The translations under genes were made by a program, and so were the position numbers. This document shows positions 3,988-38,961 of a stretch of 64,000 bases of DNA, piece by piece (position 1 is the first letter of the stretch; every line of letters begins with the position of its first letter). The notes under the pieces are model-generated. The model did not search any database and was not told the origin of the DNA. It saw nothing but the letters and a program-made list of their open reading frames with translations. This stretch comes from an uncultured Bacteroidales bacterium (GTDB lineage: Bacteria; Bacteroidota; Bacteroidia; Bacteroidales; Bacteroidaceae): positions 1-64,000 of the forward strand of contig CADBXO010000015.1 in assembly GCA_902798685.1 (NCBI GenBank), read 5' to 3'.

Positions 3988-5292
3988 TTATAAATTGGTT
4001 ATGGTTTTAGTTAATCCTATACTGTTGGAACCCTTGATCAGGATTGTCTTTCCGTTCACGGGTTCACTCTGCAATGCACTGTTTACAGCCTCGACGTCAG
4101 GAAAAAGCCTGAATCCGGAATCCTGGGCCACGCCGGCAAACTCACTGCCCACCAGCCAGACCTGGGTGAATCCGTATCTGTGTATCTCCTCGACAATACG
4201 TCTGTGCTCATCCATAGAAACCTCTCCCAGCTCCCTCATATCACCCAGGATAAGCATCTTGTCCTGAGCCTTTATCATGCTGAAGTTCTCAAGTGCGGCC
4301 GCCATGCTTGTGGGGTTGGCATTGTAGGCGTCAACCACCAGATGGTTGCGTCCGGTCTCTGTCAGCTGTGAGCGGTTGTTCTGCGGCATATACTCTGCAA
4401 CTGCAGCCGATGCATCCTGCTCCTTTACTCCGAACTTGAGTCCGATGGTAATGGCGGCTAGTGCGTTGTCCACATTGTATGCGCCTATAAGGTTTGTCTG
4501 GACAGTATGCCATCCACCCTTTCCGCTGCGCCAGCGGAACTTGACAAATGGATTGCACTCCAGCACCTCACCCTCAACTAGCAGTCCGTCATGTCCGGGC
4601 TTGCCGTATTCAATAACAGGCAGTCCTGCACACATCTGCTGCAGATGCTCATTGTCTCGGTTTACGAATGCCGTACCGCCGTGCTCACGCAGCCAGTCAT
4701 AAAGCTCGCCCTTGGTGCGCTTTACCCCCTCGAATGAGCCGAATCCCAGCAGATGGGCTTTACCCACATTGGTTATCAGTCCATAGTCAGGCTGGCTTAC
4801 CTCCACCAGTTCCTTTATGTCGCCGGGATGGCTTGCACCCATCTCAATGATGGCATACTCATGCTCAGGCTTTAATCCGAACACCGTGAGCGGAACACCT
4901 ATGGAGTTGTTCAGGTTACCCTGCGTGCAAAGTACCTTGTAGGTGGAACTCATCACTGCATTGGTAAGCTCCTTTGTGGTGGTCTTGCCGTTGGTTCCGG
5001 TAATGCCTATCACGGGAGTTCCCAGAGTGCGTCTGTGAAGAGCCGCAACCTGCTGCAGTGTAGCCAGCACATTGTCCGTGAGAATCATCCTGGGATCCTG
5101 TGCGTCATAGAGATCCGCATTGTCCATGACGGCGTAAGGACAACCCTGCTCCAACGCTCCGCGCACGAACTCATTTCCGTCAAAACGCTCACCCTTCAGG
5201 GCAAAGAACATCAGTCCGGGACCGCATTTGCGGCTGTCAGTGGTTACGCCCGTACACTTTTGGAATATGCTGTAGATCTCATTCACTGTCAT
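3988..5292 (-). CDS. murF: UDP-MurNAc-tripeptide:D-Ala-D-Ala ligase MurF
   Basis: Cytoplasmic ATP-dependent ligase adding D-Ala-D-Ala to the UDP-MurNAc-tripeptide, the last precursor step before the membrane. The 434 residues include the N-terminal substrate domain (TTDSRKCGPGLMFFAL), the P-loop GTNGKTT (99-105), the NNSIGVP segment typical of MurF and the C-terminal domain with ILGDMRELG. It sits apart from the dcw cluster, as in other Bacteroidales. The ATG is only 8 bases from a good -7 promoter box, so the message may start at or very near the start codon. Confidence 0.97.
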   Translation of the reverse strand: MTVNEIYSIFQKCTGVTTDSRKCGPGLMFFALKGERFDGNEFVRGALEQGCPYAVMDNADLYDAQDPRMILTDNVLATLQQVAALHRRTLGTPVIGITGTNGKTTTKELTNAVMSSTYKVLCTQGNLNNSIGVPLTVFGLKPEHEYAIIEMGASHPGDIKELVEVSQPDYGLITNVGKAHLLGFGSFEGVKRTKGELYDWLREHGGTAFVNRDNEHLQQMCAGLPVIEYGKPGHDGLLVEGEVLECNPFVKFRWRSGKGGWHTVQTNLIGAYNVDNALAAITIGLKFGVKEQDASAAVAEYMPQNNRSQLTETGRNHLVVDAYNANPTSMAAALENFSMIKAQDKMLILGDMRELGEVSMDEHRRIVEEIHRYGFTQVWLVGSEFAGVAQDSGFRLFPDVEAVNSALQSEPVNGKTILIKGSNSIGLTKTITNL

Positions 5293-24729: not shown

Positions 24730-25458
24730 ATGTGGCAGGCGGAAAAGGGAATACTGGTAGGTTCAGTGAGGCATAATGACCGCACAAGCGTGGCGCATAT
24801 ATTCACCAGCCAGCACGGAATGGTGCCGTTCATCTGGTTCCTTTCCAAGACCGGAAAGAACGCCAGCCGCAACACCCTGCTACAACCCCTGACCCAGCTG
24901 GAGTTCCAGGCCGAATACATTCCCACTGAGAACCTCCAACATATCAAGGAGATAAAGAACTGCGCCCCCTACGGAGATATTCCAAGGAATCCCCTTAAAA
25001 GTGCCATTTCGCTGTTCCTGTCAGAGTTCCTGACATACGCATTGAAGGGAGAGCAGAACAATCCGCAGCTTTTCAGTTTCCTGAGCGAGTCACTCAAGTG
25101 GTTCGATGCCGCTGCTGACGGCACCTACTCCAACTTCCACATAGCCTTCATGATAGGTACCGCAAGTCACATAGGCATCTGCCCCAACAGTGACGACTAC
25201 ACACCCGGATGCGTGCTTGACATGCGCGACGGCTGTTTCACCCCGCTGCTGCCCAAGCATACCGAGTACATGCCGGCCGAGCTCTCATACAAGCTCTACC
25301 TGCTCATGAACTCTGACTATGACGGAATGAAAGACGCGCCCCTGACTGGTCAGGAACGCGTCATGCTGTTGAATGCGCTCAACAATTTCTTCCGTCTTCA
25401 CATACCCTCCTTCCCTGTGCTCAAGTCAATTGAGGTCCTGGAGACGGTATTCGGTTAA
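24730..25458 (+). CDS. recO: DNA repair protein RecO
   Basis: A 242-residue recombination mediator working with RecR to load RecA at gaps. It has the N-terminal OB-fold start [20 protein letters not shown] and the helical C-terminal region ending in [24 protein letters not shown]. It is divergent to rpsT, with only the region 24583-24729 between them. Its stop overlaps the ftsZ stop by 4 bases tail to tail. No zinc-finger cysteines are visible, unlike in some Firmicutes homologues. Confidence 0.88.
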
Positions 25459-26666
25459 GCGCGCAGAGCCTTGAGCTCGGACAATCCCACAGTATTGCGG
25501 AGATATGTAGGTGATGCCTCGATGGCATCAATCAGTGCGTCGTTGTCAAGATCGGCATCGGACATCTCATAGAGATAGAGCTGGCGCTTGTCGACACGGT
25601 CACCGTAGATATCCTCGATTACGCGGTCTGCCTCCTCTTCATCATCCATCATAGGAATACTCTCCATTCCGAATCCGGTGGCAAGTACCGTAATCTTGAC
25701 CTCATCGGTCAGGGTATCGTCATTGGCAAGACCCCAGATAACCTCAATGTTCTTGTCCTCGAACTTATCCATGAAGTGACGTACCTCATTCATCTCATCC
25801 AGCATAAGCTGATGGTCTGACTGTGTACTCTGATAGATGTTGAACAGTATCTTCTTGGACTTATGGATGTCATTGTTGTAGAGAAGGGGTGACTTGAGGG
25901 CCGAATCAAACGCCTGGTTCACACGGTTCTCACCCTTGGCAACACCGGTACTCATTATTGCTACACCGCCGTTACTCAGGATCTTCTTGACATCACGGAA
26001 GTCAAGGTTGATTATTCCGCGGCAGGTAATAAGCTCGGCTATACTCTTGGTTGCGGTGGTAAGGGTCTCATCCACATGTTTGAATCCTGTGGCTACACTC
26101 TTGTCGGGATATATCTCAAGCAGTTTCTCGTTACTGATTACAAGCAGGGCGTCAACATACTGTGACATCTCGCGAACACCCTTGAGGGCCTGCTTGATCT
26201 TGGGACGCATCTCAAACTTGAACGGGATGGTAACGATACCCACGGTAAGCATGCCGCACTCCTTTGCGCATCTGGCAATAACCGGAGCAGCACCGGTACC
26301 TGTACCGCCGCCCATACCGGCAGTGATGAATACCATCTGGGTATCATCCTTGAACTGCGCCTTTATCTCCTCAATGCTCTCCTCGGCTGCCTTGCGTGCA
26401 ACTGCGGGATCATTTCCGGCACCCAGACCGTTGGTGGTCTGACGTCCCAGCTGCAGTTTGATGGGTATATCTGAATCGGCCAGCGCCTGCTGGTCAGTAT
26501 TGGCAATCACGAATACCACGTCATGAATACCCTCACGGTACATGTTCTTGACAGCATTGCTGCCACCGCCGCCCACACCGATAACCTTGATTATCTTACG
26601 TGACTCAGTAGGGAAATCAAACGGAAGAATCTCTTTCTCCTCAAATTCTTTAATATCCTGGTTCAT
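25455..26666 (-). CDS. ftsZ: Cell division protein FtsZ
   Basis: Tubulin-like GTPase forming the division ring. Seen: GVGGGGSNAVKNM near the N-terminus, the tubulin signature GGGTGTGAAPV, and the T7-type loop region DFRDVKKI. The C-terminus lacks the classic long linker of Proteobacteria and ends [19 protein letters not shown]. The ATG at 26664-26666 (MNQDIKEFEEKE, 403 residues) is preferred. An in-frame TTG at 26687 would start the protein earlier but overlaps the ftsA stop. It is the last gene of the dcw cluster. Confidence 0.96.
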   Translation of the reverse strand: MNQDIKEFEEKEILPFDFPTESRKIIKVIGVGGGGSNAVKNMYREGIHDVVFVIANTDQQALADSDIPIKLQLGRQTTNGLGAGNDPAVARKAAEESIEEIKAQFKDDTQMVFITAGMGGGTGTGAAPVIARCAKECGMLTVGIVTIPFKFEMRPKIKQALKGVREMSQYVDALLVISNEKLLEIYPDKSVATGFKHVDETLTTATKSIAELITCRGIINLDFRDVKKILSNGGVAIMSTGVAKGENRVNQAFDSALKSPLLYNNDIHKSKKILFNIYQSTQSDHQLMLDEMNEVRHFMDKFEDKNIEVIWGLANDDTLTDEVKITVLATGFGMESIPMMDDEEEADRVIEDIYGDRVDKRQLYLYEMSDADLDNDALIDAIEASPTYLRNTVGLSELKALRA

Positions 26667-26683
26667 AGTCGTTATCGGTTTAA

Positions 26684-28135
26684 TCAATTAGCGGAATTCT
26701 GACCGTTCTCATCCTTATCCTCAAAGAAACTCTCGCCCATGCTCATCACATCATCGACCCAACGTTTGAAGATGCTCACCTTCTTGGTACGCTTCTTCTC
26801 GGCTTCCTCCTCCTTGGCTGCAGTTTCCTCCTCCTTCTGGGCAGCGGCCTTCTCACGCTCCTCCTGTTCCTTGCGGTCACGCTCGGCCTGGGCGCTCTCA
26901 CCTGCCTCGGTAAAGAGGTCTATCTGAACCACCTTATCCTGATTCTCGGCCGATATGTTATCTATCTCATCCATCTTGGGCAGTTCGCAGCAGTTCTCAT
27001 CACCCTTGGCCATGACAGAAAGCAGGGCCAGCTGTGATCCGTCACCGCGCTTCCAGCTGGGTTCAACCCATGTAACGCCGCAGGCAGGTTCAGTTACCAC
27101 GCGCGGACGGCGCATTGAAGGCATCAGTTTTACAAACACCTGGTCCAACTGGCGCAGCTGTGAGCCGCCGCCCGTCAGAACTATTCCCGCATAGAGAACC
27201 TCGGCATACCCTGAAGCCTTTATCTGTACACAGACGTTACGGATAATCTCCTCGTTACGGGCTTCGATGATATCGCCTATATCCTTGAGCAGCACCTTGT
27301 TGTCATTGATCATTATGGTCTCACTGGCATCCTGGCTGCCAATCAGGTTGCAAAGTCCGTAGGTGCACTTGAGCTGCTCGGCCTGCTCAGGTTCTATCTT
27401 GAGTACAGCCGAAAGGTCACGTGTTATAAGCGCACTTCCCAGCGGGATTACGCGCAGGTAACGCAGCATACCGCTCTTGTAGACTGATACGGTTGTGGTA
27501 TCGGAACCGTAGTCAACCAGTACGCATCCCTGCTGACGGTCATCATCAGTCAGGATGGCATCGGCCTGGGCCATGGGGGCCACATAACCATCTACAATCT
27601 CCACCTGTGCCATCATAAAGCACTGGGCTATGTAATCGGCCACCTGTTTCTTGAGCAGGATATTCAGGTAACTGCCTCCGAGTGAGCGGCAAGCCACACC
27701 CATGGGGTCAGTCTCCGTTCCGCGTTTGTTGTCAACCACATACTCCTGTGACTCCTGGAACAGGTTGACATAACCTTCATAATCTATCTCACTGCACTGT
27801 TGGAACATATCGTCGATAACCTCCTGGCTGACAACAGTCTCCTCTTCAAACTGATGCTCAACCTTGCTTATTATCGACTTCAGGCCCTTGGCATTGTAAC
27901 CCACATAGACCTTCTCTATGCTGGTTGAAAGGATTGCGTTCAGCCTCTCCACCACCTCGGCAATGGCATTCGCAGTCTTGTCCAGATTATAGACAGCACC
28001 GTGACGGATGCATGATGATGACGGTACTCCGGCATAAGCCAGCACCTTGAGTGAGCCGTCAGTCATAATCTGACCTGCCACGCCTGAGATCTTGGACGAT
28101 CCGAGCTCAATTGCAACAATAACTTTGTCTTCCAT
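26684..28135 (-). CDS. ftsA: Cell division protein FtsA
   Basis: An actin-like membrane tether for FtsZ, 483 residues. Seen: VAIELGSSKISGVAGQI, the SHS2 region, the ATPase motif VLVDYGSDTTTVSVYK and VLTGGGSQLRQLDQVF. The C-terminus has a long Lys/Glu-rich coiled segment (about 410-455). It then ends in an amphipathic stretch (VSIFKRWVDDVMSMGESFF) that should bind the inner membrane. The long charged linker is typical of Bacteroidetes FtsA. It starts 5 bases after ftsQ. Confidence 0.95.
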   Translation of the reverse strand: MEDKVIVAIELGSSKISGVAGQIMTDGSLKVLAYAGVPSSSCIRHGAVYNLDKTANAIAEVVERLNAILSTSIEKVYVGYNAKGLKSIISKVEHQFEEETVVSQEVIDDMFQQCSEIDYEGYVNLFQESQEYVVDNKRGTETDPMGVACRSLGGSYLNILLKKQVADYIAQCFMMAQVEIVDGYVAPMAQADAILTDDDRQQGCVLVDYGSDTTTVSVYKSGMLRYLRVIPLGSALITRDLSAVLKIEPEQAEQLKCTYGLCNLIGSQDASETIMINDNKVLLKDIGDIIEARNEEIIRNVCVQIKASGYAEVLYAGIVLTGGGSQLRQLDQVFVKLMPSMRRPRVVTEPACGVTWVEPSWKRGDGSQLALLSVMAKGDENCCELPKMDEIDNISAENQDKVVQIDLFTEAGESAQAERDRKEQEEREKAAAQKEEETAAKEEEAEKKRTKKVSIFKRWVDDVMSMGESFFEDKDENGQNSAN

Positions 28136-28140
28136 CTATC

Positions 28141-28878
28141 TTATTTTCGTTTCTTGCATACTACCTGACCATCGTAGGCTACGCTTATTGAGCGGTATTT
28201 GTTCCAGCCTACATTGTCCAGACCCTTCTCATAGAAGTTCATGAGACGGTCCAGCTTATCCTCAACGTTATCGGCCGTGCCGATTATCAGCAGGTGGTCA
28301 CCCACGCGGGGTACCAGTTCTATCTGTCCGTCCTTGGTCACGTTTATCTGCTCAATCTGAGCCTTCCAGAACTCCGAACGGTCAATTACACGAACCACCT
28401 TAAGCAGGTCACCGGACGCGAACTGGCGGTCTATGTATCCGGTCGCTACCGGAAGCTGCACCGCCAAGGAGCGCTGAGTAAGTATCTCGCCCCTGCTGTC
28501 CACATAGAAGTCCTGGCCGCGGTTGTTGATGACACGTACCAGAGGTACCTTGCTTGAGAGGTTTATCCTGAGCATGTCACCGCCGGTCTTGTAACACTGT
28601 ACCTTGCCCACCAGCGGATGCATCATCAGTGTGGCCTCTATCTTTTCAGGTTCTATCTCTTCAAGCGGCAGACCCACAGGATCTATCGAATGCTCCTGAA
28701 GCACTGCCAGCACCATCTCCTCATCAATAAGGTCAAAATGGAGACTGTCCGTGATATGCAGGTCCACGCCGCGGCACAAACGGGTATCCTCATGCCTGTC
28801 AGTCATGGCCATCGCCGAATATACCAGATATCCGGCCAGAACAACCACCGATAATATGGACAGTATCTTCTTTAACAC
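28141..28878 (-). CDS. ftsQ: Cell division protein FtsQ/DivIB-type
   Basis: A 245-residue bitopic protein: one membrane segment (about 4-24) then a POTRA-like domain (VDLHITDSLHFDLIDEEMVLAVL) and the FtsQ beta domain (PLVRVINNRGQDFYVDSRGEIL). It links FtsA/FtsZ to the septal synthase. The start is GTG at 28876-28878, one base after the murG-murC stop; no in-frame ATG occurs until residue 23, inside the membrane segment. Confidence 0.88.
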   Translation of the reverse strand: MLKKILSILSVVVLAGYLVYSAMAMTDRHEDTRLCRGVDLHITDSLHFDLIDEEMVLAVLQEHSIDPVGLPLEEIEPEKIEATLMMHPLVGKVQCYKTGGDMLRINLSSKVPLVRVINNRGQDFYVDSRGEILTQRSLAVQLPVATGYIDRQFASGDLLKVVRVIDRSEFWKAQIEQINVTKDGQIELVPRVGDHLLIIGTADNVEDKLDRLMNFYEKGLDNVGWNKYRSISVAYDGQVVCKKRK

Positions 28879-28879
28879 C

Positions 28880-31384
28880 TTATTTGAGTATCTCAGTTAT
28901 GGTTTCAACATAATCCTCCAGATCACCTGCACCCAGGGTTACCAGCACCTCAACATCATCCTTGATGGACTTGACAAGTTCAGGAACCTGGTTGCGTGAG
29001 ATGACACCCTTGCATACGCCCGGCTTCATGTTCTCTGCCAGCAGAGCGCTTGTAACACCCGGTATGGGTTGCTCACGTGCGGGGTATATCTCCAGCAGCC
29101 ATACCTCATCAAAGAGTGAGAGGCTGTCAGCGAATTCATTGTAGAAATCCCTTGTGCGGGTATACAGATGCGGCTGGAAAATACATGTAATCTTGCGGTC
29201 GGCATAGAGCTTGCGCAGTGACAGGGCGCACTGACGGATCTCCTCGGGATGATGTGCATAGTCACTCAGGTAAACCTTATCGGCCTTCTTGACATGGAAA
29301 TCAAAGCGGCGGTCGCATCCGCGGAATGAGCCGATACGCTCGCGGATGACATCATCCGATGCACCGCTCATCTGTGCCATAGCCATGGCAGCCACGGCAT
29401 TCTCCACATTGATGGGGATTGGAACGCCCAGCTCGACATCGGCGATGCTGCCCAGCGGTGATACGTAATCGAACCTGAGCTCACCGTTTCCTATCCTTAT
29501 GTTTGCGGCGTGGAAATTTCCCTCGTCCAGTCCGTAGGTATAAAGGTTCACACCCTTCTGAAGCTGGGGCTTGATCTTGTCGGCCAGCCCCACATGCAGT
29601 ATCAGGTCACCGCCCGGCTTGATGAGTGAAGTATACTTGCGGAAGCTCTCCACATATGCCTCATAAGTGCCGTAAATATCCAGATGGTCCGCATCGACGG
29701 CTGTGATTACCGTGCGCAGCGGAGTCAGATGATGGAACGAACGGTCAAACTCATCGGCCTCAATTACCACACGGCGGCTCCTGTTTGAAATCATCAGGTT
29801 GCTGCCTATGTTCTTGAGAATACCGCCCAGGAATGCGTTGCAGCCCTCATCGGTACCGTTCAGGATGTATGCCACCATTGATGATGTGGTAGTCTTGCCG
29901 TGTGTACCGGCCACGCACAGACCGTCCAGAGAACGGGTCAGCGTACCCAGCACCTGAGCACGTTTCTGCACGTCAAAGCAGTGCATGTTGAACCAGCTCA
30001 GTATCTTATTGTCAGCCGGAATGGCCGGAGTATAGACCACCAGTGTCGATGCTGAATCCTTGAAACAGGGGTCAACCTTCTCCACGTCATCTTCAAAACC
30101 GATCATGGCACCCTCCTTTATCAGGGCCGATGTCAGCTCAGTCGATGTCTTGTCATATCCGCCCACCCTGCATCCGCGGGCCAGGAAGTAACGTACCAGA
30201 GCGCTCATTCCTATGCCTCCGGCGCCTACAAAGTATACTGACTTGATGTCATCCAGCTTGAGTGATCCGCTTCCGTAACCGGCCAGCTTGAGCACCTCGC
30301 GGGCTATAATCTCGGCCGAGTCATACATGGCCAGCTTGAGTATGTTGTCATGCAGCTGCTCCAGACGGGCGTTGTCCTTTACAAGGTCAATGGCTGCAGG
30401 AATAAGTTCCTTCTTGGCATCCACGTCACGGATATGGATTGCGGCATCCCTGTCGGCCAGGGCCAGGGCGTTCTTGGTCTGATGGTCCTCGGCCACGTTG
30501 GGTGAGGGAACCAGGATGACCGGCTTGCCCAGCAGGCAGAGCTCGGAAATGGTACCGGCACCGGCACGTGAAATCACCAGGTCGGCGGCTGCGTAAGCCT
30601 GATCCATATCCTGCACGAACTCTGTGGGGAAGAGATTGTCAACGGCCTCCTCATCGGCCAGACGGCTCTTCATCTCCTCAAAGTAGTACTTGCCGGTCTG
30701 CCATACGAACTGAACGTCATAAGACATACGTATCAGGTCCAGGTTGGCCATCACGCTCTCATTGAGTGTACGTGCGCCCAGGCTGCCTCCTACAATAAGT
30801 ACCGTTCTCTTGTCGGGGTCAAGACCCATGGCAGTGCAGGCCTTCTTGCGGGTGATTCCGCCCTTGGTAAGGGTGGGACGAACCGGGTTACCTGTCTTGA
30901 TTATCTTGTCGGCAGGGAAGAAACGGTCCATGCCGTCATATGCTACACATATCTTGGAGGCTTTCTTGGCCAGCAGCTTGTTGGTGACACCGGCGTATGA
31001 GTTCTGCTCCTGAAGCAGTGTGGGTATACCCATCTTTCCGGCTATGCTCAGAGTCGGTCCGCTGGCGTAACCGCCCACTCCCACTGCAACCATGGGGCGG
31101 AACTGGCGTATTATGCGGCGTGCCATCATCTGGCTGCGCATAATCTTGAACAGCACCACAATGTTCTTGAGCGGGTTCTTACGGTCAAAACCGCAGATGG
31201 GCAGTCCTTTGATGTTGAAACCTGCCTGCGGGACACGCTGCATCTCCATACGGCCTTGAGCTCCCACAAAGAGTATCTCCGCCTCCGGACTCAGTGCCTT
31301 GATTGCATGCGCTATCGAAACTGCAGGAAATATGTGTCCTCCTGTACCGCCTCCGCTGATTATAATTCTTGGTTTTTCCTCCAT
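28880..31384 (-). CDS. murG-murC: MurG-MurC fusion: lipid II GlcNAc transferase joined to UDP-MurNAc:L-Ala ligase
   Basis: One 834-residue reading frame encodes two complete wall enzymes. Residues 1 to about 368 are MurG (GGGTGGHIFPA at 11-21, VGVGGYASGP, QEQNSYAGVTN, GGSLGARTLN, SRAGAGTISEL), which makes lipid II from lipid I. Residues about 375-834 are full-length MurC (GAGGIGMSAL at 387-396, AGTHGKTTTSSM, EADEFDRSFH, DYAHHPEEI), which starts the stem peptide. The join is a short linker GYGSGSLK (369-376). No ATG, GTG or TTG codon lies at the expected murC start; the first ATG is Met393, after the nucleotide loop, so separate MurC translation is unlikely. In most bacteria these are separate genes. 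Confidence 0.93.
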   Translation of the reverse strand: MEEKPRIIISGGGTGGHIFPAVSIAHAIKALSPEAEILFVGAQGRMEMQRVPQAGFNIKGLPICGFDRKNPLKNIVVLFKIMRSQMMARRIIRQFRPMVAVGVGGYASGPTLSIAGKMGIPTLLQEQNSYAGVTNKLLAKKASKICVAYDGMDRFFPADKIIKTGNPVRPTLTKGGITRKKACTAMGLDPDKRTVLIVGGSLGARTLNESVMANLDLIRMSYDVQFVWQTGKYYFEEMKSRLADEEAVDNLFPTEFVQDMDQAYAAADLVISRAGAGTISELCLLGKPVILVPSPNVAEDHQTKNALALADRDAAIHIRDVDAKKELIPAAIDLVKDNARLEQLHDNILKLAMYDSAEIIAREVLKLAGYGSGSLKLDDIKSVYFVGAGGIGMSALVRYFLARGCRVGGYDKTSTELTSALIKEGAMIGFEDDVEKVDPCFKDSASTLVVYTPAIPADNKILSWFNMHCFDVQKRAQVLGTLTRSLDGLCVAGTHGKTTTSSMVAYILNGTDEGCNAFLGGILKNIGSNLMISNRSRRVVIEADEFDRSFHHLTPLRTVITAVDADHLDIYGTYEAYVESFRKYTSLIKPGGDLILHVGLADKIKPQLQKGVNLYTYGLDEGNFHAANIRIGNGELRFDYVSPLGSIADVELGVPIPINVENAVAAMAMAQMSGASDDVIRERIGSFRGCDRRFDFHVKKADKVYLSDYAHHPEEIRQCALSLRKLYADRKITCIFQPHLYTRTRDFYNEFADSLSLFDEVWLLEIYPAREQPIPGVTSALLAENMKPGVCKGVISRNQVPELVKSIKDDVEVLVTLGAGDLEDYVETITEILK

Positions 31385-31392
31385 ATATATTG

Positions 31393-32667
31393 TTAGTTTT
31401 CGTCAAATGATTCGTTTCCGTCAACCGGTGTGGGGACATCGGCCTCTGTTCCCAGAACCTGCTCTCCACGCTCCTCCTTCTCAAGGGTATTGCTTATACC
31501 CAACAGCATGCCTATGCATCCGCTTGTCATCAGGACCGATGTTCCTCCCTTGCTTATGAGCGGTAGCGGCTGTCCTGTAACGGGGAACAGACCCACTGCG
31601 ACAGACATGTTGATGAATGCCTGCAGACCGAGCAGCATACCCAGTCCCATCGCCAGATAGGCGGGATATTTCTCCTTGCACTTGGTGGCTATACGGCCCA
31701 CCCTGAAGAGCAGGACTATATAGACAAGCATCACAACTGCGCCTCCCAGTATACCCAGTTCCTCTATTATGATTGCATAGATAAAGTCACAGCTGGCCTC
31801 CTGCAGATAGTCACGCTCATCGGAGTTACCCGGACCCTTGCCCAGAATGTTACTGGTTGCAATGGCTATGTTGGCGTGGGTCTCCTGAGGTTTCTCGGGA
31901 GCCACCAGTTTTGCATACTCGTATGCGCTGGGCTTGTTCCTGGTCTGAGAGAAATCCTGCAGACGCGCCTGCCATGTGGTGGCACGTGAAGGAATGATCT
32001 TGGAGTCACGTATGGTCTGCGCCGGAACGAACAGCAGTATCACCACTGCCACTATTCCCGCTCCCACTACTACACCTGTCAGGGCAAGCATCCTGCGCCA
32101 TGCAATACCGCCCAGTATCATCATCACGAATATCACACCTGCCAGAAGCACGGCCGTGGAGAGGTTCTCACCCACAATCAGTGCATCTACGAATCCCGTC
32201 AGCGCCAGTATCTTCCAGAATGTGTTGGCCTGGCTGAGTTCATCATCCGGTTTGAGTTTGGAGAGCCAGTAAGCCACTGTCATGATTACCCCAATCTTAC
32301 CGAGTTCGGACGGCTGCAGCTGGAAGAATCCCAGATTGATCCAGCGTTCGGCACCCGATGAACCCATACTGCGTACCGACAGATAACCCAGCAGCAGTAT
32401 TGACAGCGGCACGAGCAATACCGGGAACAGCCTGTACCACTTGTAGTGGAGCAGATGCACCAGCCACATACCCACCAGACCTATGCACAGGTGCATGGTA
32501 TGTGAAATGATAGGTGCCAGGAAACTGCTCTTACCGAATGTAAGACGGCTGCTGGCGCTGAACACCTCCACGAGAGATATCAGGCACAGTATGAAGACCA
32601 TGGTCCAGATGGTACGGTCTCCGTTAAGCAGTTGTCTGCGTTTGGGTTTATCCTCAGTATTCTCCAT
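31393..32667 (-). CDS. ftsW: Septal peptidoglycan glycosyltransferase FtsW
   Basis: A 424-residue SEDS-family polymerase with about ten membrane segments. It contains the SEDS signatures GSSGAERWINLGFFQLQPSELGK and PVTGQPLPLISKGGTSVL. It polymerises lipid II with the FtsI transpeptidase. Located between murD and murG-murC with an 8-base gap downstream. A soluble acidic tail of about 30 residues follows the last membrane segment. Confidence 0.95.
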   Translation of the reverse strand: MENTEDKPKRRQLLNGDRTIWTMVFILCLISLVEVFSASSRLTFGKSSFLAPIISHTMHLCIGLVGMWLVHLLHYKWYRLFPVLLVPLSILLLGYLSVRSMGSSGAERWINLGFFQLQPSELGKIGVIMTVAYWLSKLKPDDELSQANTFWKILALTGFVDALIVGENLSTAVLLAGVIFVMMILGGIAWRRMLALTGVVVGAGIVAVVILLFVPAQTIRDSKIIPSRATTWQARLQDFSQTRNKPSAYEYAKLVAPEKPQETHANIAIATSNILGKGPGNSDERDYLQEASCDFIYAIIIEELGILGGAVVMLVYIVLLFRVGRIATKCKEKYPAYLAMGLGMLLGLQAFINMSVAVGLFPVTGQPLPLISKGGTSVLMTSGCIGMLLGISNTLEKEERGEQVLGTEADVPTPVDGNESFDEN

Positions 32668-32676
32668 ATCCTTTTA

Positions 32677-34011
32677 TTACAATGCTCTTACGCAAGCCTT
32701 GAACTGTTCGCCGCGATCCTCATAGCTCTTAAAGAGGTCGAAGCTGGCGCAGCAGGGGCTCAGCAGTACAATCTCACCGCTGTGAGCCATCTTGTATGCA
32801 GCGTCAACCGCATCCTTCATTGACTGAACATCGGCCACGGGAAGTCCGAATCCGTCAAAGAAATCATGCAGTTTCTCATTGTGCAGACCCATGTAGACCA
32901 GGCCGCAGCACTTCTCGCGAACCAGATCAGCTATCTCGTTGTAGTCATTACCCTTGTCCTTGCCTCCCAGAATCAGCACGCACTTTACCGGCATGCTCTG
33001 CAGGGCGTACCAGCAGCTGTTCACGTTGGTAGCCTTGGAGTCATTGATAAAGTCGATTCCGTTTACGCGGGTCACGCGCTCCAGACGGTGCTCCACACCC
33101 TGGAATGTCTGCAGGGCCTTGCGGATTGTCTCGCTCTTGATACCGGCAATGTTGGCCGATATTCCCGCAGCCATTGAGTTGTAGAGGTTATGCTTGCCTG
33201 TGAGCGAGAGTGACTCCTGCTCCATGTTGAAGGCGTACGGCTTGGTGAAGTAGAGTGTGCCGTCCTCAACATATGCTGCCAGATCCTCCTTCTTTGCCTC
33301 GGCAAAGGGATAGAGGGTAGCCTGCAGACCGTACTTCTTGAGCTCACGGGTGATGATGGGATCATCGCTCCAGTAAACGAAAGCGTCATCCTTGGTCTGG
33401 TTGCGTATTACGCGCATCTTGGCATCCACGTAATTCTGCATCTCATGGTCATAACGGTCCAGATGATCGGGGGTTATGTTCATGAGGATGGCGATGTCTG
33501 CCTTGAAGTCATACATGTTGTCCAGCTGGAAGCTGCTCAGCTCTATTACATAGTAGTCAAAGTTCTTCTCGGCTACCTGCCAAGCCAGACTGCTTCCTAT
33601 GTTACCTGCCAGACCCACGTTCATGCCGGCCATCTTGAAGATGTGATAGATGAGTGATGTGGTCGTGGTCTTGCCGTTGGATCCGGTAATGCAGATCATC
33701 TTGGCGTTTGTGTATCGGCCCGCAAACTCAATCTCCGATATGATGGGGGTACCCTGGGCCATGAGTTTCTGGATGATGGGAGCCTCCTTGGGAATGCCCG
33801 GGCTCTTAATCACCTCATCGGCTGCAAGGATACGCTCCTCAGTATGCTGTTTCTGTTCCCACTCAATTCCGCGCAGGTCAAGTTCATTACGGTAGTGCTC
33901 CTTAATCTCGGACAGGTCCGATACAAACACGTCAAAGCCTTTGGCCTTAGCCAGTATGGCGGCACCAGTACCGCTCTCTCCTGCTCCCAATACTACAATC
34001 TTCTTTGCCAT
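32677..34011 (-). CDS. murD: UDP-MurNAc-L-Ala:D-Glu ligase MurD
   Basis: A 444-residue Mur ligase. Seen: the N-terminal Rossmann start VVLGAGESGTGAAILAK, the SPGIPKEAP segment, the P-loop ITGSNGKTTTTSL, NITPDHLDRYD, and NDSKATNVNSCWYAL characteristic of MurD. It acts in the cytoplasm after MurC. Separated by 9 bases from ftsW and 6 from mraY. Confidence 0.96.
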   Translation of the reverse strand: MAKKIVVLGAGESGTGAAILAKAKGFDVFVSDLSEIKEHYRNELDLRGIEWEQKQHTEERILAADEVIKSPGIPKEAPIIQKLMAQGTPIISEIEFAGRYTNAKMICITGSNGKTTTTSLIYHIFKMAGMNVGLAGNIGSSLAWQVAEKNFDYYVIELSSFQLDNMYDFKADIAILMNITPDHLDRYDHEMQNYVDAKMRVIRNQTKDDAFVYWSDDPIITRELKKYGLQATLYPFAEAKKEDLAAYVEDGTLYFTKPYAFNMEQESLSLTGKHNLYNSMAAGISANIAGIKSETIRKALQTFQGVEHRLERVTRVNGIDFINDSKATNVNSCWYALQSMPVKCVLILGGKDKGNDYNEIADLVREKCCGLVYMGLHNEKLHDFFDGFGLPVADVQSMKDAVDAAYKMAHSGEIVLLSPCCASFDLFKSYEDRGEQFKACVRAL

Positions 34012-34017
34012 TTTAGG

Positions 34018-35304
34018 TTATCTGATTTTCAAGGTCAATATTGTAAGTGCTGCAAGACCTATGCTTATGATCCAGGTCCTGAGCGTTATCTTGGTCTCAA
34101 ACTGTAACTTGTTGTCATTTCCGTGGAACTTGACGGTGCTGGTGGGATCCGCCTTGAGCACCTGCTCCATGCTGGTACGGAAATGGTCATGAATGGGGGT
34201 GCGCTTCCATATACGCTGGTGAACGCCCTTGCGCTTGCCTATCTTGTAGTAGAAACGCTGGCAGATGACCGACAGGCTCTCAACCAGGAACACACCGCAG
34301 AGTATGGGAAGCAGCAGCTCCTTGTGAATGCAGAGCGCAGCCACGGCAATGATGCCGCCGATGGTCAGACTGCCCGTATCACCCATGAATATCTGTGCCG
34401 GGTATGAGTTGAACCAGAGGAAACCTATCAGGGCTCCCACGAAGGCGGCCAGATACACAACCACCTCCTGGCTTCCCGGAACGTACATCAAGTCAAAGTG
34501 ACTTGCCGTCACGACGTTACTGGATACGTACGCCAGAATACCCAGCGTAACTCCTATTATGGCCGAGTTGCCCGCAGCCATACCGTCCATGCCGTCGTTC
34601 AGGTTAGATCCGTTCGATACTGCGGTTACTACAAACAGTGTAAGCAGTACAAAGAAAATCCAACCTGCCTTGTACTTGTTGCTCTCACCCAGCCAGCCGA
34701 ATGCATCGGCATAGTTGAGGTTATGGTTCTTGAAGAACGGTATCGTGGTACGGGTTGACTTTACATCGGGAGTCTTTACAACAATCTCGGTGTTGTTCTC
34801 GATGCGTGTCTCAACCTTCTCGTTTATCACCACCTGGGGGCTGTAGCGCAGGGTCAGACCCACAATCAGGCCCAGTGCCAACTGACCGGTTACCTTGAGC
34901 CAGCCGTTGAGTCCCTCCTTGTTACCCTTGAATGTCTTGATGTAGTCATCGGCAAAACCTATGACACCAAGAATAATGGTAGTTATGAGCATGAGCCACA
35001 TGTAGACATTCTTAAGGTCACCTATCAGGAGACAGGGAAGCAGGATGGCTACGATGATTATAACACCGCCCATGGTAGGAACGCCCTTCTTGGTCACGCC
35101 GAACGGATCCAGCTTGGCATCACGCTGAGTCTCGGATATGTTACGTTTCTTGAGCAGGTCAATGAAATGACTTCCGAACCAGCATGACACGATCAGTGAC
35201 GTTACCAGAGCGAATATGGCTCTGAAGGTCACATAACTGAACATTCCACCACCCGGAATATCGATTCCGGCATTCTTCAAGTATTCAAACAGACTGTACA
35301 GCAT
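34018..35304 (-). CDS. mraY: Phospho-MurNAc-pentapeptide transferase MraY
   Basis: A 428-residue integral membrane enzyme making lipid I. Seen: the catalytic FADDYIK, NGSNLNDGMDGMAAG, FMGDTGSL and the HHH-like region KRKGVHQRIWKRTPIHDHF. It is about 65 residues longer than E. coli MraY. The extra part lies around residues 165-225 (YSPQVVINEKVETRIENN to GWLGESNKYKAGW), an insertion between membrane segments also usual in Bacteroidetes. Confidence 0.95.
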   Translation of the reverse strand: MLYSLFEYLKNAGIDIPGGGMFSYVTFRAIFALVTSLIVSCWFGSHFIDLLKKRNISETQRDAKLDPFGVTKKGVPTMGGVIIIVAILLPCLLIGDLKNVYMWLMLITTIILGVIGFADDYIKTFKGNKEGLNGWLKVTGQLALGLIVGLTLRYSPQVVINEKVETRIENNTEIVVKTPDVKSTRTTIPFFKNHNLNYADAFGWLGESNKYKAGWIFFVLLTLFVVTAVSNGSNLNDGMDGMAAGNSAIIGVTLGILAYVSSNVVTASHFDLMYVPGSQEVVVYLAAFVGALIGFLWFNSYPAQIFMGDTGSLTIGGIIAVAALCIHKELLLPILCGVFLVESLSVICQRFYYKIGKRKGVHQRIWKRTPIHDHFRTSMEQVLKADPTSTVKFHGNDNKLQFETKITLRTWIISIGLAALTILTLKIR

Positions 35305-35317
35305 CTATACCTTTTAT

Positions 35318-36766
35318 TTAAAAGCATTCACGAATAACTTCATGGTCGTCAAAGTGGTGCTTGACTCCCTTAACATCCTGGTAATCCTCATGACCCTTTC
35401 CTGCCACCAGGATCACATCACCAGCCTGAGCGATCATGCAGGCCGTGCGGATTGCCTCGCGACGGTCAACTATGGTTATCACCTTCTGCATATCCTCCTT
35501 TGTCAGACCGGCCAGCATATCGTTGATGATATCCTGCGGCTCCTCAAAGCGGGGGTTATCGGATGTGATGATTACCTTGTCGCTGTATTTGACGCTCTCC
35601 TTGGCCATAAGCGGACGCTTGCCCTTGTCGCGGTTGCCGCCGGCACCCACAACGGTAATGATCTGACCCTTGCCGTCCAGCACATCCACGATAGTGGTAA
35701 GTACGTTAGTCAGGGCGTCGGGGGTATGTGCGTAATCCACGATTGCGGTGAATCCCTTGGGTGAGCGGATTGCATCGAATCGGCCGTTCACGGGAACCAG
35801 TGTACTCATTACGGTTAGCACTTCCATCGGGTCACGGCCCAGGTTGACTGCAGTTCCGTAAACAGCCAGCAGGTTGCTTGCGTTGAACTTGCCTATGAAC
35901 TTGAGGAACACCTCACGTCCGTTTATCTCCAGCAGCATTCCGTCAAAACCGGACTCCAGCAGACGGCCCTTGAAATCACTCATGCTGCGCAGTGAGTATG
36001 TGGTGACCTTAGCCTTGGTGTTCTGTGCCATCACCAGACCGTTCTTGTCATCCAGGTTGGTAACCACGAAAGCATCCTTGGGCAGATCATCAAAGAATTT
36101 CTTCTTGGCCTTGAGGTAGTTCTCAACGGTCTTATGGTAATCCAGATGATCACGTGTCAGGTTGGTGAATATTCCGCCGGCATACTTCAGGCCGCCAATG
36201 CGCTTCTGCACGATGGCGTGCGAGCTGCACTCCATGAAGACGTACTTGCAGCCCTCATCGGCCATACGTCCAAGCAGACGGTTCAGTGTAACGGCGTCAG
36301 GTGTGGTATGATCGGCCGGGATGGGCTCTCCGTCAATGTAGTTGCATACCGTTGAGAGCAGACCGGTCTTGTAGCCGAACTTGCGGAACATGTTGTAGAG
36401 CAATGTGGCGATGGTGGTCTTGCCGTTGGTACCGGTAACACCCACCAGCTTTACCTTGTCTGTGGGGTTGCCGAAGAACCTTGTGGCTACTATGCCTACT
36501 ACATCCTCGCAGTCGGGTACCTGGATGTAGGTCACTCCGTCGGCAGTCTGATCGGGCAGCACCTCACACAAAACTGATGTAGCACCAAGTTCGATAGCCT
36601 TGGGTATGAACTGATGACCGTCAACGGTAGTGCCGCGCATGGCCACGAACAGACAACCCTTGGCTGCCTTGCGTGAATCCAGCTGGATATCGGTAACCTC
36701 AACTCCGGTATCACCTACCGTCCTGAGTATCTTAAGTCCTGAAATAAGTTCTCCAATTGTCACCAT
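35318..36766 (-). CDS. murE: UDP-MurNAc-dipeptide:meso-diaminopimelate ligase MurE
   Basis: Adds the third stem-peptide residue. Seen: the P-loop [41 protein letters not shown], and the substrate motif DNPRFEEP, which indicates meso-diaminopimelate rather than lysine. The ATG at 36764-36766 gives 482 residues. A GTG at 36775, overlapping the ftsI stop in a GTGA arrangement, is a possible alternative and would add three residues. Confidence 0.96.
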
Positions 36767-36771
36767 ATATG

Positions 36772-38961
36772 TCACATTGATAATGTTAACTGTATTCTGT
36801 CACCCTTCTTGAAACGGGTATTGCGTGAAGGAACCTGGGTCTTTACCTTACCCACTCCCTCTATGCTCACTCTCATTCCCATACGCTCAAGCAGATAAAG
36901 GGCGTCCGATGCCCCCATTCCGCGTACATCGGGAACGATACCGTCGGCATACTCCACGTAGTTCATCACGTATCGGCCCGAATCGGAATTGACCGAGCCC
37001 CATATGCTGTCAGGCAGTGAACGGTCTATCTTGCGCATCAGGTTCTTCTTGCCAAGTCCCTTGAGCACTGTGCTTGCCTTGGCCAGATCACCCGGCATCA
37101 CCTTGGGTATGAACTGACGCACCGAATCATACGCCTCATGGACATCCCTCAGGTTACGGCTTGCCATCACCTTCTCGGATATCTCATGGAATGCGGGAGC
37201 TGCCCATGTGGCACCGCCTGCCGCACCGCCGTCGGTACGAACCGATACTATGCACGAGTATTGCGGGTTATCGGCCGGGAAATATCCGCAGAACGATACC
37301 ATGTATCTCCTGGGACCGTTCCTGTAACCTGCATCACCCTGTGACAGCTGAGCAGTTCCGGTCTTTCCGGCAACGGCAAAGTATTTTGATCCGGCATTCT
37401 TTCCGGTACCGTCGGCCACCACAAGTTCCAGCATGCTCTTTACCTTGGCCAGAGTCTCGTCCTTGCACATATGGCGTACCACCACCTCGACCGGGAACTC
37501 CTGGACCACCTCATCCTCACGGGTAACCTTGGTTACCAGACGGGGAGCAACCATGCAGCCGCCGTTGGCTATGCCGTTGTAGAAGGCCAGAGTATTTATT
37601 ACCGGCAGCTGGGTGTTGTAACCTATCGACATCCAGGGCAGGCGTGTGGCATCCCAGTAGCCGTCACGTCTTATGACAGGTGCAGCAGTACCGGTAAGCT
37701 GTAAGCCAAAATGGGTGTTTATTCCGGTGCGGTAAACACCGTCCACAAACTCCTGCGGATTATCCTTGTACGCGGCATGTATCAGTTTGGATGTGCCTAT
37801 GTTGCTGGAGTTGGCAATGATATAGGGAACACTCAGCCATCCGTACTCATGTGAATCAGTCATCCGTGAGCCGCCGAATCCGGTATAGACGCCCTTCTCG
37901 CAATAGACACTGTCCTTGAGGTTTATCTTGCCGGCATCAAGCGCCACCATCATGGATACGGGCTTGAATGTAGAACCGGGCTCATAAATCTCCCTTACCG
38001 CGTTGTTCTGTATCTCGTCAAACTGACCGGGAGCCGTCTTGGTAAGACTGGCCATGGCCTTGATGTCACCCGTCTTGACCTCCATCAGAACTACTATGCC
38101 CGATGCAGCGTTGTGTGAATCCATCACCTTGCGCAGGGCCACCTCGGCGATATCCTGCATATCCACATTAAGCGTGGTATGTACGTCACAGCCGTCAATC
38201 TGAGGAACATCGGCCACCATACGGGTCACGTTCTGCACCTTCTCCTGATGTCCGCGACCCGGTGTGCCGCGCAGAAGCGAGTCAAACGAAAGCTCCAGAC
38301 CGTTACGGGCCGAATCCTTGGCCTCGTACATGCTTCCGATGGTACGGGCAGCCAGGGCACCGAACGGTTTCTGACGTGATATCTTGGACTCTGCGCTGTA
38401 GAACCACATCTCATACTTGGGCTTGAGCCATACGGTCTTGACCAATGACTTGTACTGGTTGTATGATATGGGGTATGAGTTTCTGGAGGTACCGGGAAGC
38501 AGCAGCCATGAGTGTGACTTGGCTTCAAAACCCTTCTGGTAATGGTCAGCGAACTCCTGAACCGAATACTTGGGGAAAATCTCGTGCATCTGACGTGCAA
38601 ACTCAGCCAGATGGTTGTTGTAAAGGGTATCCTTACGCATCTGGTCCTTCTTGGCACGTGCCTCATCCCTCTCGGCTGTCTTGAAATCCAGGAATATGCG
38701 GTACTGCTTCATACTGCTTGCCAGCAGCAGTCCCTCATCACTGAGTATGTTTCCGCGACGCGGCTCGATAACCCTGTTGACCGGAGTCATGTTACGCTCC
38801 ACATCATTCCAGTACTGCCTCTCGCCGAACATGACCATAACCATCTTGATGATGATGAGAGCGCCCCACACAAGCATGAGCAGGAACAGAGAGAGGTATT
38901 TGCGGGATACCCTCTTCTTCTCCTGCTTGCGTGCGTCGTCCTTCTCAGCCATATCAATCAT
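36772..38961 (-). CDS. ftsI: Septal penicillin-binding protein FtsI with PASTA domain
   Basis: A 729-residue class B transpeptidase crosslinking septal wall. It has one membrane segment (about 22-45), a pedestal domain, and the transpeptidase motifs STFK (330-333, nucleophile Ser330), SSN (385-387) and KTG (533-535). A single C-terminal PASTA domain (about 672-729, [20 protein letters not shown]) is typical of Bacteroidetes FtsI. The ATG overlaps the ftsL stop by 4 bases (ATGA), which fixes the start. Confidence 0.95.

Follow-up and report, generated by a model that had tools for sequence, protein, structure and literature searches.

Does the dcw cluster of an uncultured Bacteroidales bacterium encode MurG and MurC as one protein and, if so, what might their union mean for the synthesis of peptidoglycan? 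The question arises from a 64,000-nucleotide stretch of DNA (hereafter the window; contig CADBXO010000015.1, positions 1 to 64,000), on whose minus strand a single frame runs from an ATG at 31384 to a TAA at 28880-28882, encoding 834 amino acids with zero internal stops. A sequence-only reading of the window had reported a single 834-residue frame holding both enzymes, leaving its strand unstated, within an otherwise ordinary dcw order; the Pfam matches and the open frame confirm the first point, and the family matches of the neighboring genes bear out the second. Specifically, the order in the sense of transcription is a PBP with a PASTA domain, murE, mraY, murD, ftsW, murG-murC, ftsQ, ftsA, and ftsZ, each of the others occupying its own frame:

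36772 to 38961, minus strand: PBP with a PASTA domain (Pfam), ftsI by position; no NCBIfam PBP model scores above its cut-off
35318 to 36775, minus strand: murE (TIGR01085, 500.3 bits)
34018 to 35304, minus strand: mraY (TIGR00445, 240.1 bits)
32677 to 34011, minus strand: murD (TIGR01087, 421.6 bits)
31393 to 32667, minus strand: ftsW, the upstream neighbor of the fusion, in a separate frame (FTSW_RODA_SPOVE, 215.3 bits; best NCBIfam ftsW match 242.7 bits, below its cut-off of 337.5)
28880 to 31384, minus strand: murG-murC fusion gene, 834 amino acids plus TAA (domain and family matches; frame uninterrupted in 31 of the genus's 37 genomes)
28141 to 28878, minus strand: ftsQ, the downstream neighbor of the fusion, in a separate frame (Pfam FtsQ_DivIB_C, 28.5 bits)
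26684 to 28135, minus strand: ftsA (TIGR01174, 198.4 bits)
25455 to 26687, minus strand: ftsZ (Pfam Tubulin and FtsZ_C)

The fusion gene itself divides into three parts:

30284 to 31384, minus strand: MurG part, residues 1-367 (Pfam PF03033 and PF04101; TIGR01133, 284.1 bits)
30251 to 30283, minus strand: residues 368-378, a linker (AGYGSGSLKLD) whose sequence varies, unbroken in all 31 fused members of the genus, with a dN/dS near 0.13
28883 to 30250, minus strand: MurC part, residues 379-834 (Pfam PF01225, PF08245, and PF02875; TIGR01082, 324.3 bits)

Several lines of evidence support the presence of a complete MurG and a complete MurC in this one polypeptide. Pfam places Glyco_transf_28 (residues 7-145) and Glyco_tran_28_C (194-354) on the MurG side and, in the same chain, Mur_ligase (383-484), Mur_ligase_M (491-670), and Mur_ligase_C (692-819) on the MurC side. 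The NCBIfam murG model is matched above its cut-off of 250.25 bits over profile positions 4-351 of 353, and the murC model, which is the chain's best NCBIfam match, is covered from position 2 to 445 of 449 at a score 11 bits below its cut-off of 335.1. Further, in an alignment of 22 of the genus's 31 fused members, the MurG signatures GGTGGH, QEQN, GNPVR, GGSLGAR, SE, and HQT.NA and the MurC signatures GxGGIGM, GTHGKTTT, EADE, DADHLD, DYAHHP, and QPHLYxRT (x free) are invariant in all 22. These stretches, which we take to be active-site motifs, with those of MurG presumably forming the donor and acceptor site, align with E. coli MurG (35.3% identity) and E. coli MurC (33.6% identity), and both halves look functional on this comparison. 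Among the 26 distinct PDB sequences matched by the protein, none covers both halves.

The fusion is also very probably the cell's sole source of both activities, since the MurG and MurC reactions are both essential to peptidoglycan synthesis and no separate copy of either gene was found. In the window's genome (83.74% complete, 42 contigs), a search with the fusion returned one match plus a weak match within murD, and a MurC profile found the fusion and four weaker places, namely murD, murE, window positions 3988-5292, and locus L144. Across the 31 fused genomes of the genus, a search with the same query (E 0.001) returned no second MurG match, and the extra matches were weak (20-28% identity) and confined to the MurC part, as expected for other Mur ligases. 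No separate MurG or MurC was found even in the fused genomes given as 100% (G019) and 97% (G007) complete.

The weaker places themselves include two MurF-like ligases in the window's genome. One, at window positions 3988-5292 on the minus strand, is a stand-alone MurF (NCBIfam, 368.5 bits); the other, at positions 1180-3648 of L144, is an 822-amino-acid protein in which Pfam recognizes the middle domain of a Mur ligase together with an alanine racemase. Many members of the genus are given as 80-87% complete, although some of them have few contigs (for example, G026 with 20 contigs and 84%, and G030 with 30 contigs and 87%), which may reflect a lineage-specific loss or divergence of marker genes.

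Among the 37 genomes of the genus, a group of gut bacteria, the fusion occurs as one open frame in 31, of which the 30 other than the window's are 69-97% identical to the window protein, and as two adjacent genes in 6 (G011, G015, G016, G017, G022, and G024). In these six, the murG stop is present, murC lies in another frame, and the junction is very short or overlapping; their existence indicates that the fusion is dispensable in this lineage. From at least 595 candidates among named GTDB genomes, 80 loci were kept, 77 with separate genes and 3 fused: L032, L033 (from horse faeces), and L040 (from water-buffalo caecum). The fused three are not counted as additional cases, corresponding for L033, L040, and L032 to G018, G008, and G033 (L032 is the same as G033 in the aligned MurG and MurC). 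A family-wide trait is unsupported: in a search of 151 genomes of the family (2 without a match), none of the rows listed from outside the genus held both proteins without a stop, and when eight long-open-frame rows of that search were fetched, stops separated the genes in all eight. In a phylum sample of 395 genomes (10 without a match), the sole full-length stop-free match among the rows listed was that of the window's genome. As a separate observation, at L095 (Hoylesella shahii, about 4780-5186), the murG frame stops early at 4804 and the murC match starts at 5186, which suggests that this murG is broken or mis-sequenced in the draft.

The junction has remained open throughout the fused members of the genus, where zero stops were found over 833-839 codons counted from the match start. 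Its linkers span about 9-12 residues and differ in length by a few. The GYGSGSLK segment that the sequence-only reading had described as a Gly/Ser linker is present in the window, but its Gly/Ser content is not conserved: it is confined to close relatives, with linkers such as GFENGPLA, GFKTGKVD, and KADKAFSI elsewhere. Estimates of dN/dS from 190 non-independent pairs of 20 close species were lowest in the two enzyme bodies (0.059 for MurG residues 1-350 and 0.054 for MurC) and higher in the MurG tail (residues 351-367; 0.142) and in the linker (0.131). Purifying selection acts on the linker, more loosely than on the two bodies, and the linker behaves as a translated and constrained stretch.

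Although the MurG+MurC tree hinted at two origins within the genus, most of the phylogenetic evidence favors one. Specifically, in a tree of seven dcw proteins (FtsZ, FtsA, FtsW, MurD, MraY, MurE, and FtsI; 20 rows, 10 of them fused, with MurG and MurC left out), the ten fused rows form one clade (99/99), and the six unfused species of the genus fall as two successive outer branches. A tree of FtsW only (48 rows, 32 fused) also unites the fused rows (87/91, and 88% of 200 bootstrap trees). The MurG+MurC tree separated L031 and L145 from the remaining 30 fused rows and recovered one clade in 2% of 200 bootstrap trees, but an AU test did not reject a single fused clade (p 0.393), and we rejected the two-origin alternative on these grounds. 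A single gain with zero losses among the sampled species of the genus is the most likely history. Close relatives with a murG stop and a murC start, which the sequence-only reading had listed as a refutation of its claim, do occur (6 of the 37 members); because all fused rows group together as a single clade within the genus, they reflect evolution, not error. The most likely origin of the fusion is a single event in the common ancestor of that clade, namely loss of the murG stop at a junction that would have been short or overlapping, like those of the present sister species; reversal would be hard once the murC start had gone.

Single chains holding MurG and MurC domains together, which the sequence-only reading had proposed to look for, occur both in the window's genus and in other Bacteroidales families. 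In an order sample of 295 genomes, searched with a profile query at a threshold of 1e-150 (170 of the 295 gave any match, so weaker fusions could escape), both proteins lay in one stop-free frame in six genomes: the window's, G758 (family f145), G762 (f150), G618 (f105), and G653 and G753 (both f140). The five fusions outside the window were checked in fetched DNA, and those of G618, G762, and G753, the three scanned, have both halves above the NCBIfam cut-offs, with TIGR01082 scores of 407.5, 360.4, and 358.2 bits among these three other-family proteins. Within f145 (45 genomes), the fusion was found in fetched DNA of 12 and separate genes in 20 others; one fused genome with 6% contamination (G880) also carries a separate murG/murC pair. 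The fusion is present in 1 of 3 genomes of f150 (separate genes in 1 of 3), 2 of 2 of f140, and 1 of 1 of f105, and linker sequences differ among lineages. On a quick tree of 74 rows, which has some long rows and on which gains and losses are indistinguishable, the fused and separate states changed at least 13 times, 8 of these changes being forced by starred branches; within f145 the two states alternate, with at least 9 changes, 5 of them so forced. The fusion is present in five families, namely the window's and at least four others, and its state has changed repeatedly.

Two further features were seen in f145. First, in L218 (G864) a 7-base unit is repeated 11.4 times in tandem at positions 2668-2747, which take in the linker (2669-2743). 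Since 7 is not a multiple of 3, one unit more or fewer would disrupt the fused frame; this junction could be slippage-prone, or the assembly could have miscounted its units. Second, in G867, G880, G864, G894, and G891, several matches break off inside the MurC part, at query residues 618-620, with the frame continuing in some, a pattern that an insert or a divergent stretch between the central and C-terminal domains of MurC could produce.

Is this junction simply one of many in a tightly packed cluster that could have lost a stop? In a set of 178 loci, which was gathered for MurG-MurC fusion and is thus enriched in it, MurG and MurC are fused in 47, as against none for seven other dcw neighbor pairs (0/39, 0/88, 0/134, 0/165, 0/171, 0/144, and 0/91), all of which lie closer together, by median gap, than unfused MurG and MurC. 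The 295-genome order sample, which had not been selected for the fusion, gave a similar picture when joined FtsW+MurG and MurD+FtsW queries were run against it. For FtsW-MurG, 146 of the 295 genomes were matched at 1e-120, and the 32 rows that span both genes all have a stop; for MurD-FtsW, 239 were matched, and the 74 spanning rows among those listed all have a stop; for MurG-MurC, 6 of the 44 spanning rows among those listed have none. If genomes are independent, the chance of all six falling on one of three pairs is 0.0013, or 0.0008 counting matched genomes only, values that ignore kinship (two of the six share a genus), differences in threshold, and the use of a profile query for MurG-MurC against single sequences for the other pairs. 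Sixteen rows with long frames, drawn from the searches of the phylum and order and for FtsW-MurG, were fetched, and the queried gene pair shares a frame in none of them, as in none of five fetched long-frame MurD-FtsW rows. An apparent shared frame at L248 was rejected, the MurC query there matching murD itself at 24% identity. At L239 (269-2582; G551), the MurG-bearing frame spans 771 codons and extends back over ftsW in another frame, which is probably a chance open frame. Of the three pairs sought in the order sample, fusions turned up for MurG-MurC and not for FtsW-MurG or MurD-FtsW, a hint that some physical constraint or benefit is particular to MurG and MurC.

We consider it highly probable, judging from the sequence, that the gene encodes one bifunctional peptidoglycan enzyme in which an N-terminal MurG glycosyltransferase is followed by a short variable linker and a C-terminal MurC L-alanine ligase, with both halves presumably active in the same polypeptide. 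Because MurG associates peripherally with the membrane, MurC would be held there beside it at 1:1, perhaps near MraY and FtsW as the sequence-only reading had proposed. Direct channeling of substrate is not expected, because MurD, MurE, MurF, and MraY act between the MurC and MurG steps; at most, the fusion would bring the start and the end of the lipid II branch together and keep them in balance, and a plausible benefit would be a fixed 1:1 dosage with local supply near MraY and MurG. It is conceivable, although we hold this tentatively and at less than even likelihood, that separate lineages of Bacteroidales have repeatedly and convergently tethered MurC, the first amino-acid ligase, to MurG, the last, membrane-bound transferase, the advantage being that MurC would sit at 1:1 in a Mur complex close to the membrane, with MurG as its scaffold. 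If convergent tethering is true, fused and unfused sister species would constitute a natural experiment on a Mur "metabolon". With 31 fused and 6 unfused species in one genus and at least four further families, there are matched pairs on which tethering could be tested, and they bear on whether the cytoplasmic Mur enzymes act as one complex around MurG.

The strongest competing explanation, to which we give close to an even chance, is near-neutral loss of the stop codon: a small indel or stop loss joins adjacent genes, the halves keep working, no tethering benefit follows, and loss of the murC start then works like a ratchet. Such a reading contests the functional meaning of the fusion, not its existence. 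It accords with the short or overlapping junctions of the unfused relatives in the genus, with linkers that differ between lineages and, in the genus, accumulate amino-acid changes more rapidly than the two enzymes they join, and with the alternation of fused and separate states in f145. It is less easily reconciled with equally tight dcw neighbors being unfused where MurG-MurC is fused in 47 of the 178 loci (a fusion-enriched set), with zero FtsW-MurG and zero MurD-FtsW fusions against six of MurG-MurC in the order sample, and with zero losses among the 31 fused members of the genus. Neutral stop loss accounts for the origin of the fusion equally well, and the neighbor-pair control weakens it only in part.

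A less likely alternative is that two proteins are still made, with MurC freed either by initiation at one of two in-frame codons or by proteolysis of the linker:

30326 to 30328, minus strand: ATG353, in-frame candidate internal start, not conserved, 26 residues ahead of residue 379
30293 to 30295, minus strand: GTG364, in-frame candidate internal start, not conserved, 15 residues ahead of residue 379, where the MurC part starts

The sequence-only reading had claimed that no start codon exists at the expected murC site and that separate synthesis of MurC was unlikely. Its first claim stands for residues 365 to 392 of the window protein, where no in-frame ATG, GTG, or TTG occurs, but ATG353 and GTG364 lie just upstream. 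Its second claim agrees with the wider comparison, as start positions near the junction are not conserved across the 31 fused members: an in-frame ATG, GTG, or TTG falls within residues 350-384 in 28 of them, yet no position is common to more than 17, and L015, L020, and L030 have none. A few fusions have an ATG inside the linker itself (L017, L023, L145, and L180), and L178, from another family, has no in-frame start in the span that opens 20 residues ahead of the end of MurG and reaches 12 residues into MurC. Internal initiation as a rule thus seems unlikely from these sequences, and we regard the production of two proteins, by either route, as improbable, even if ATG353 and GTG364 would permit a certain amount of free MurC from the window gene. 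The weakest alternative, an assembly or sequencing artefact in the form of a missed stop or frameshift, retains a negligible probability: the window's genome is incomplete and in 42 contigs, and such an error could still apply to single-species fusions of other families, but within the genus it is ruled out by the recurrence of this open frame in 31 species genomes, the other 30 at 69-97% identity to the window protein, and by purifying selection on the linker.

The MurG-MurC architecture has already been published, although the sequence-only reading knew of no described fusion of this kind. Laddomada 2016 (PMC4929429), in its text and Figure 3 legend, gives murG and murC as fused in the actinomycete C. 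gilvus, and ftsW and murG as fused in K. flavida, and MurG/MurC fusions are mentioned again in PMC6420597. As described there, the C. gilvus gene, like that of the window, joins the same two enzymes in one fused dcw gene, and the window protein likewise carries MurG and MurC in one uninterrupted frame; the two belong to different phyla (Actinomycete versus Bacteroidota). That the genus's fused clade has unfused outgroups argues for an origin independent of the actinobacterial fusion. An arrangement of murG-murC2-murC1 in Frankia, also considered as a fusion, is instead an operon according to the relevant passage of PMC7231273. In the open-access literature, we found no published account of a MurG-MurC fusion in Bacteroidales, and, as far as our searches show, what is new here are the Bacteroidota cases, the single clade in the genus, the five-family recurrence, and the neighbor-pair control; the evolutionary case is stronger here than in the published passages on the C. 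gilvus fusion, which say nothing of its linker, distribution, phylogeny, or selection. Passages in PMC4929429 and PMC6420597 use gene fusions as indirect support for Mur enzymes working as a complex around MurG, and the latter also notes that MurG oligomers have been reported and proposed as the scaffold of a Mur complex.

Other fusions of Mur enzymes share some aspects of the window protein and differ in their partners. In the passages of PMC6420597 on Bordetella pertussis, MurE-MurF likewise places two Mur enzymes in one chain, which is elongated and flexible and interacts with MurG, itself a proposed scaffold; unlike the window fusion, it covers consecutive steps and does not include MurG. 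In Verrucomicrobium spinosum, MurC is also joined to another cell-wall enzyme, lineage-wide, and the MurC domain of MurB/MurC allowed complementation, but, as described in PMC4803751, the partner is MurB, which acts at the preceding step, and a MurG domain is absent; a MurB domain is in turn absent from the Pfam matches of the window protein. The Chlamydia MurC/Ddl fusion (as described in PMC4803751; NF011171) similarly joins MurC across non-consecutive steps, but its partner is Ddl and its MurC is N-terminal. The window protein matches NF011171 through its MurC part alone (profile 7-442 of 809, 186.6 bits against a cut-off of 1015), the match stopping at position 442, and its Pfam matches include no Ddl domain. 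Finally, the 822-amino-acid protein of L144, in the same genome, resembles the window fusion in joining two cell-wall precursor enzymes but differs in involving other enzymes at another locus; the NCBIfam model for a MurF/alanine racemase is NF008897, and the assignment of L144 itself comes from a Pfam scan.
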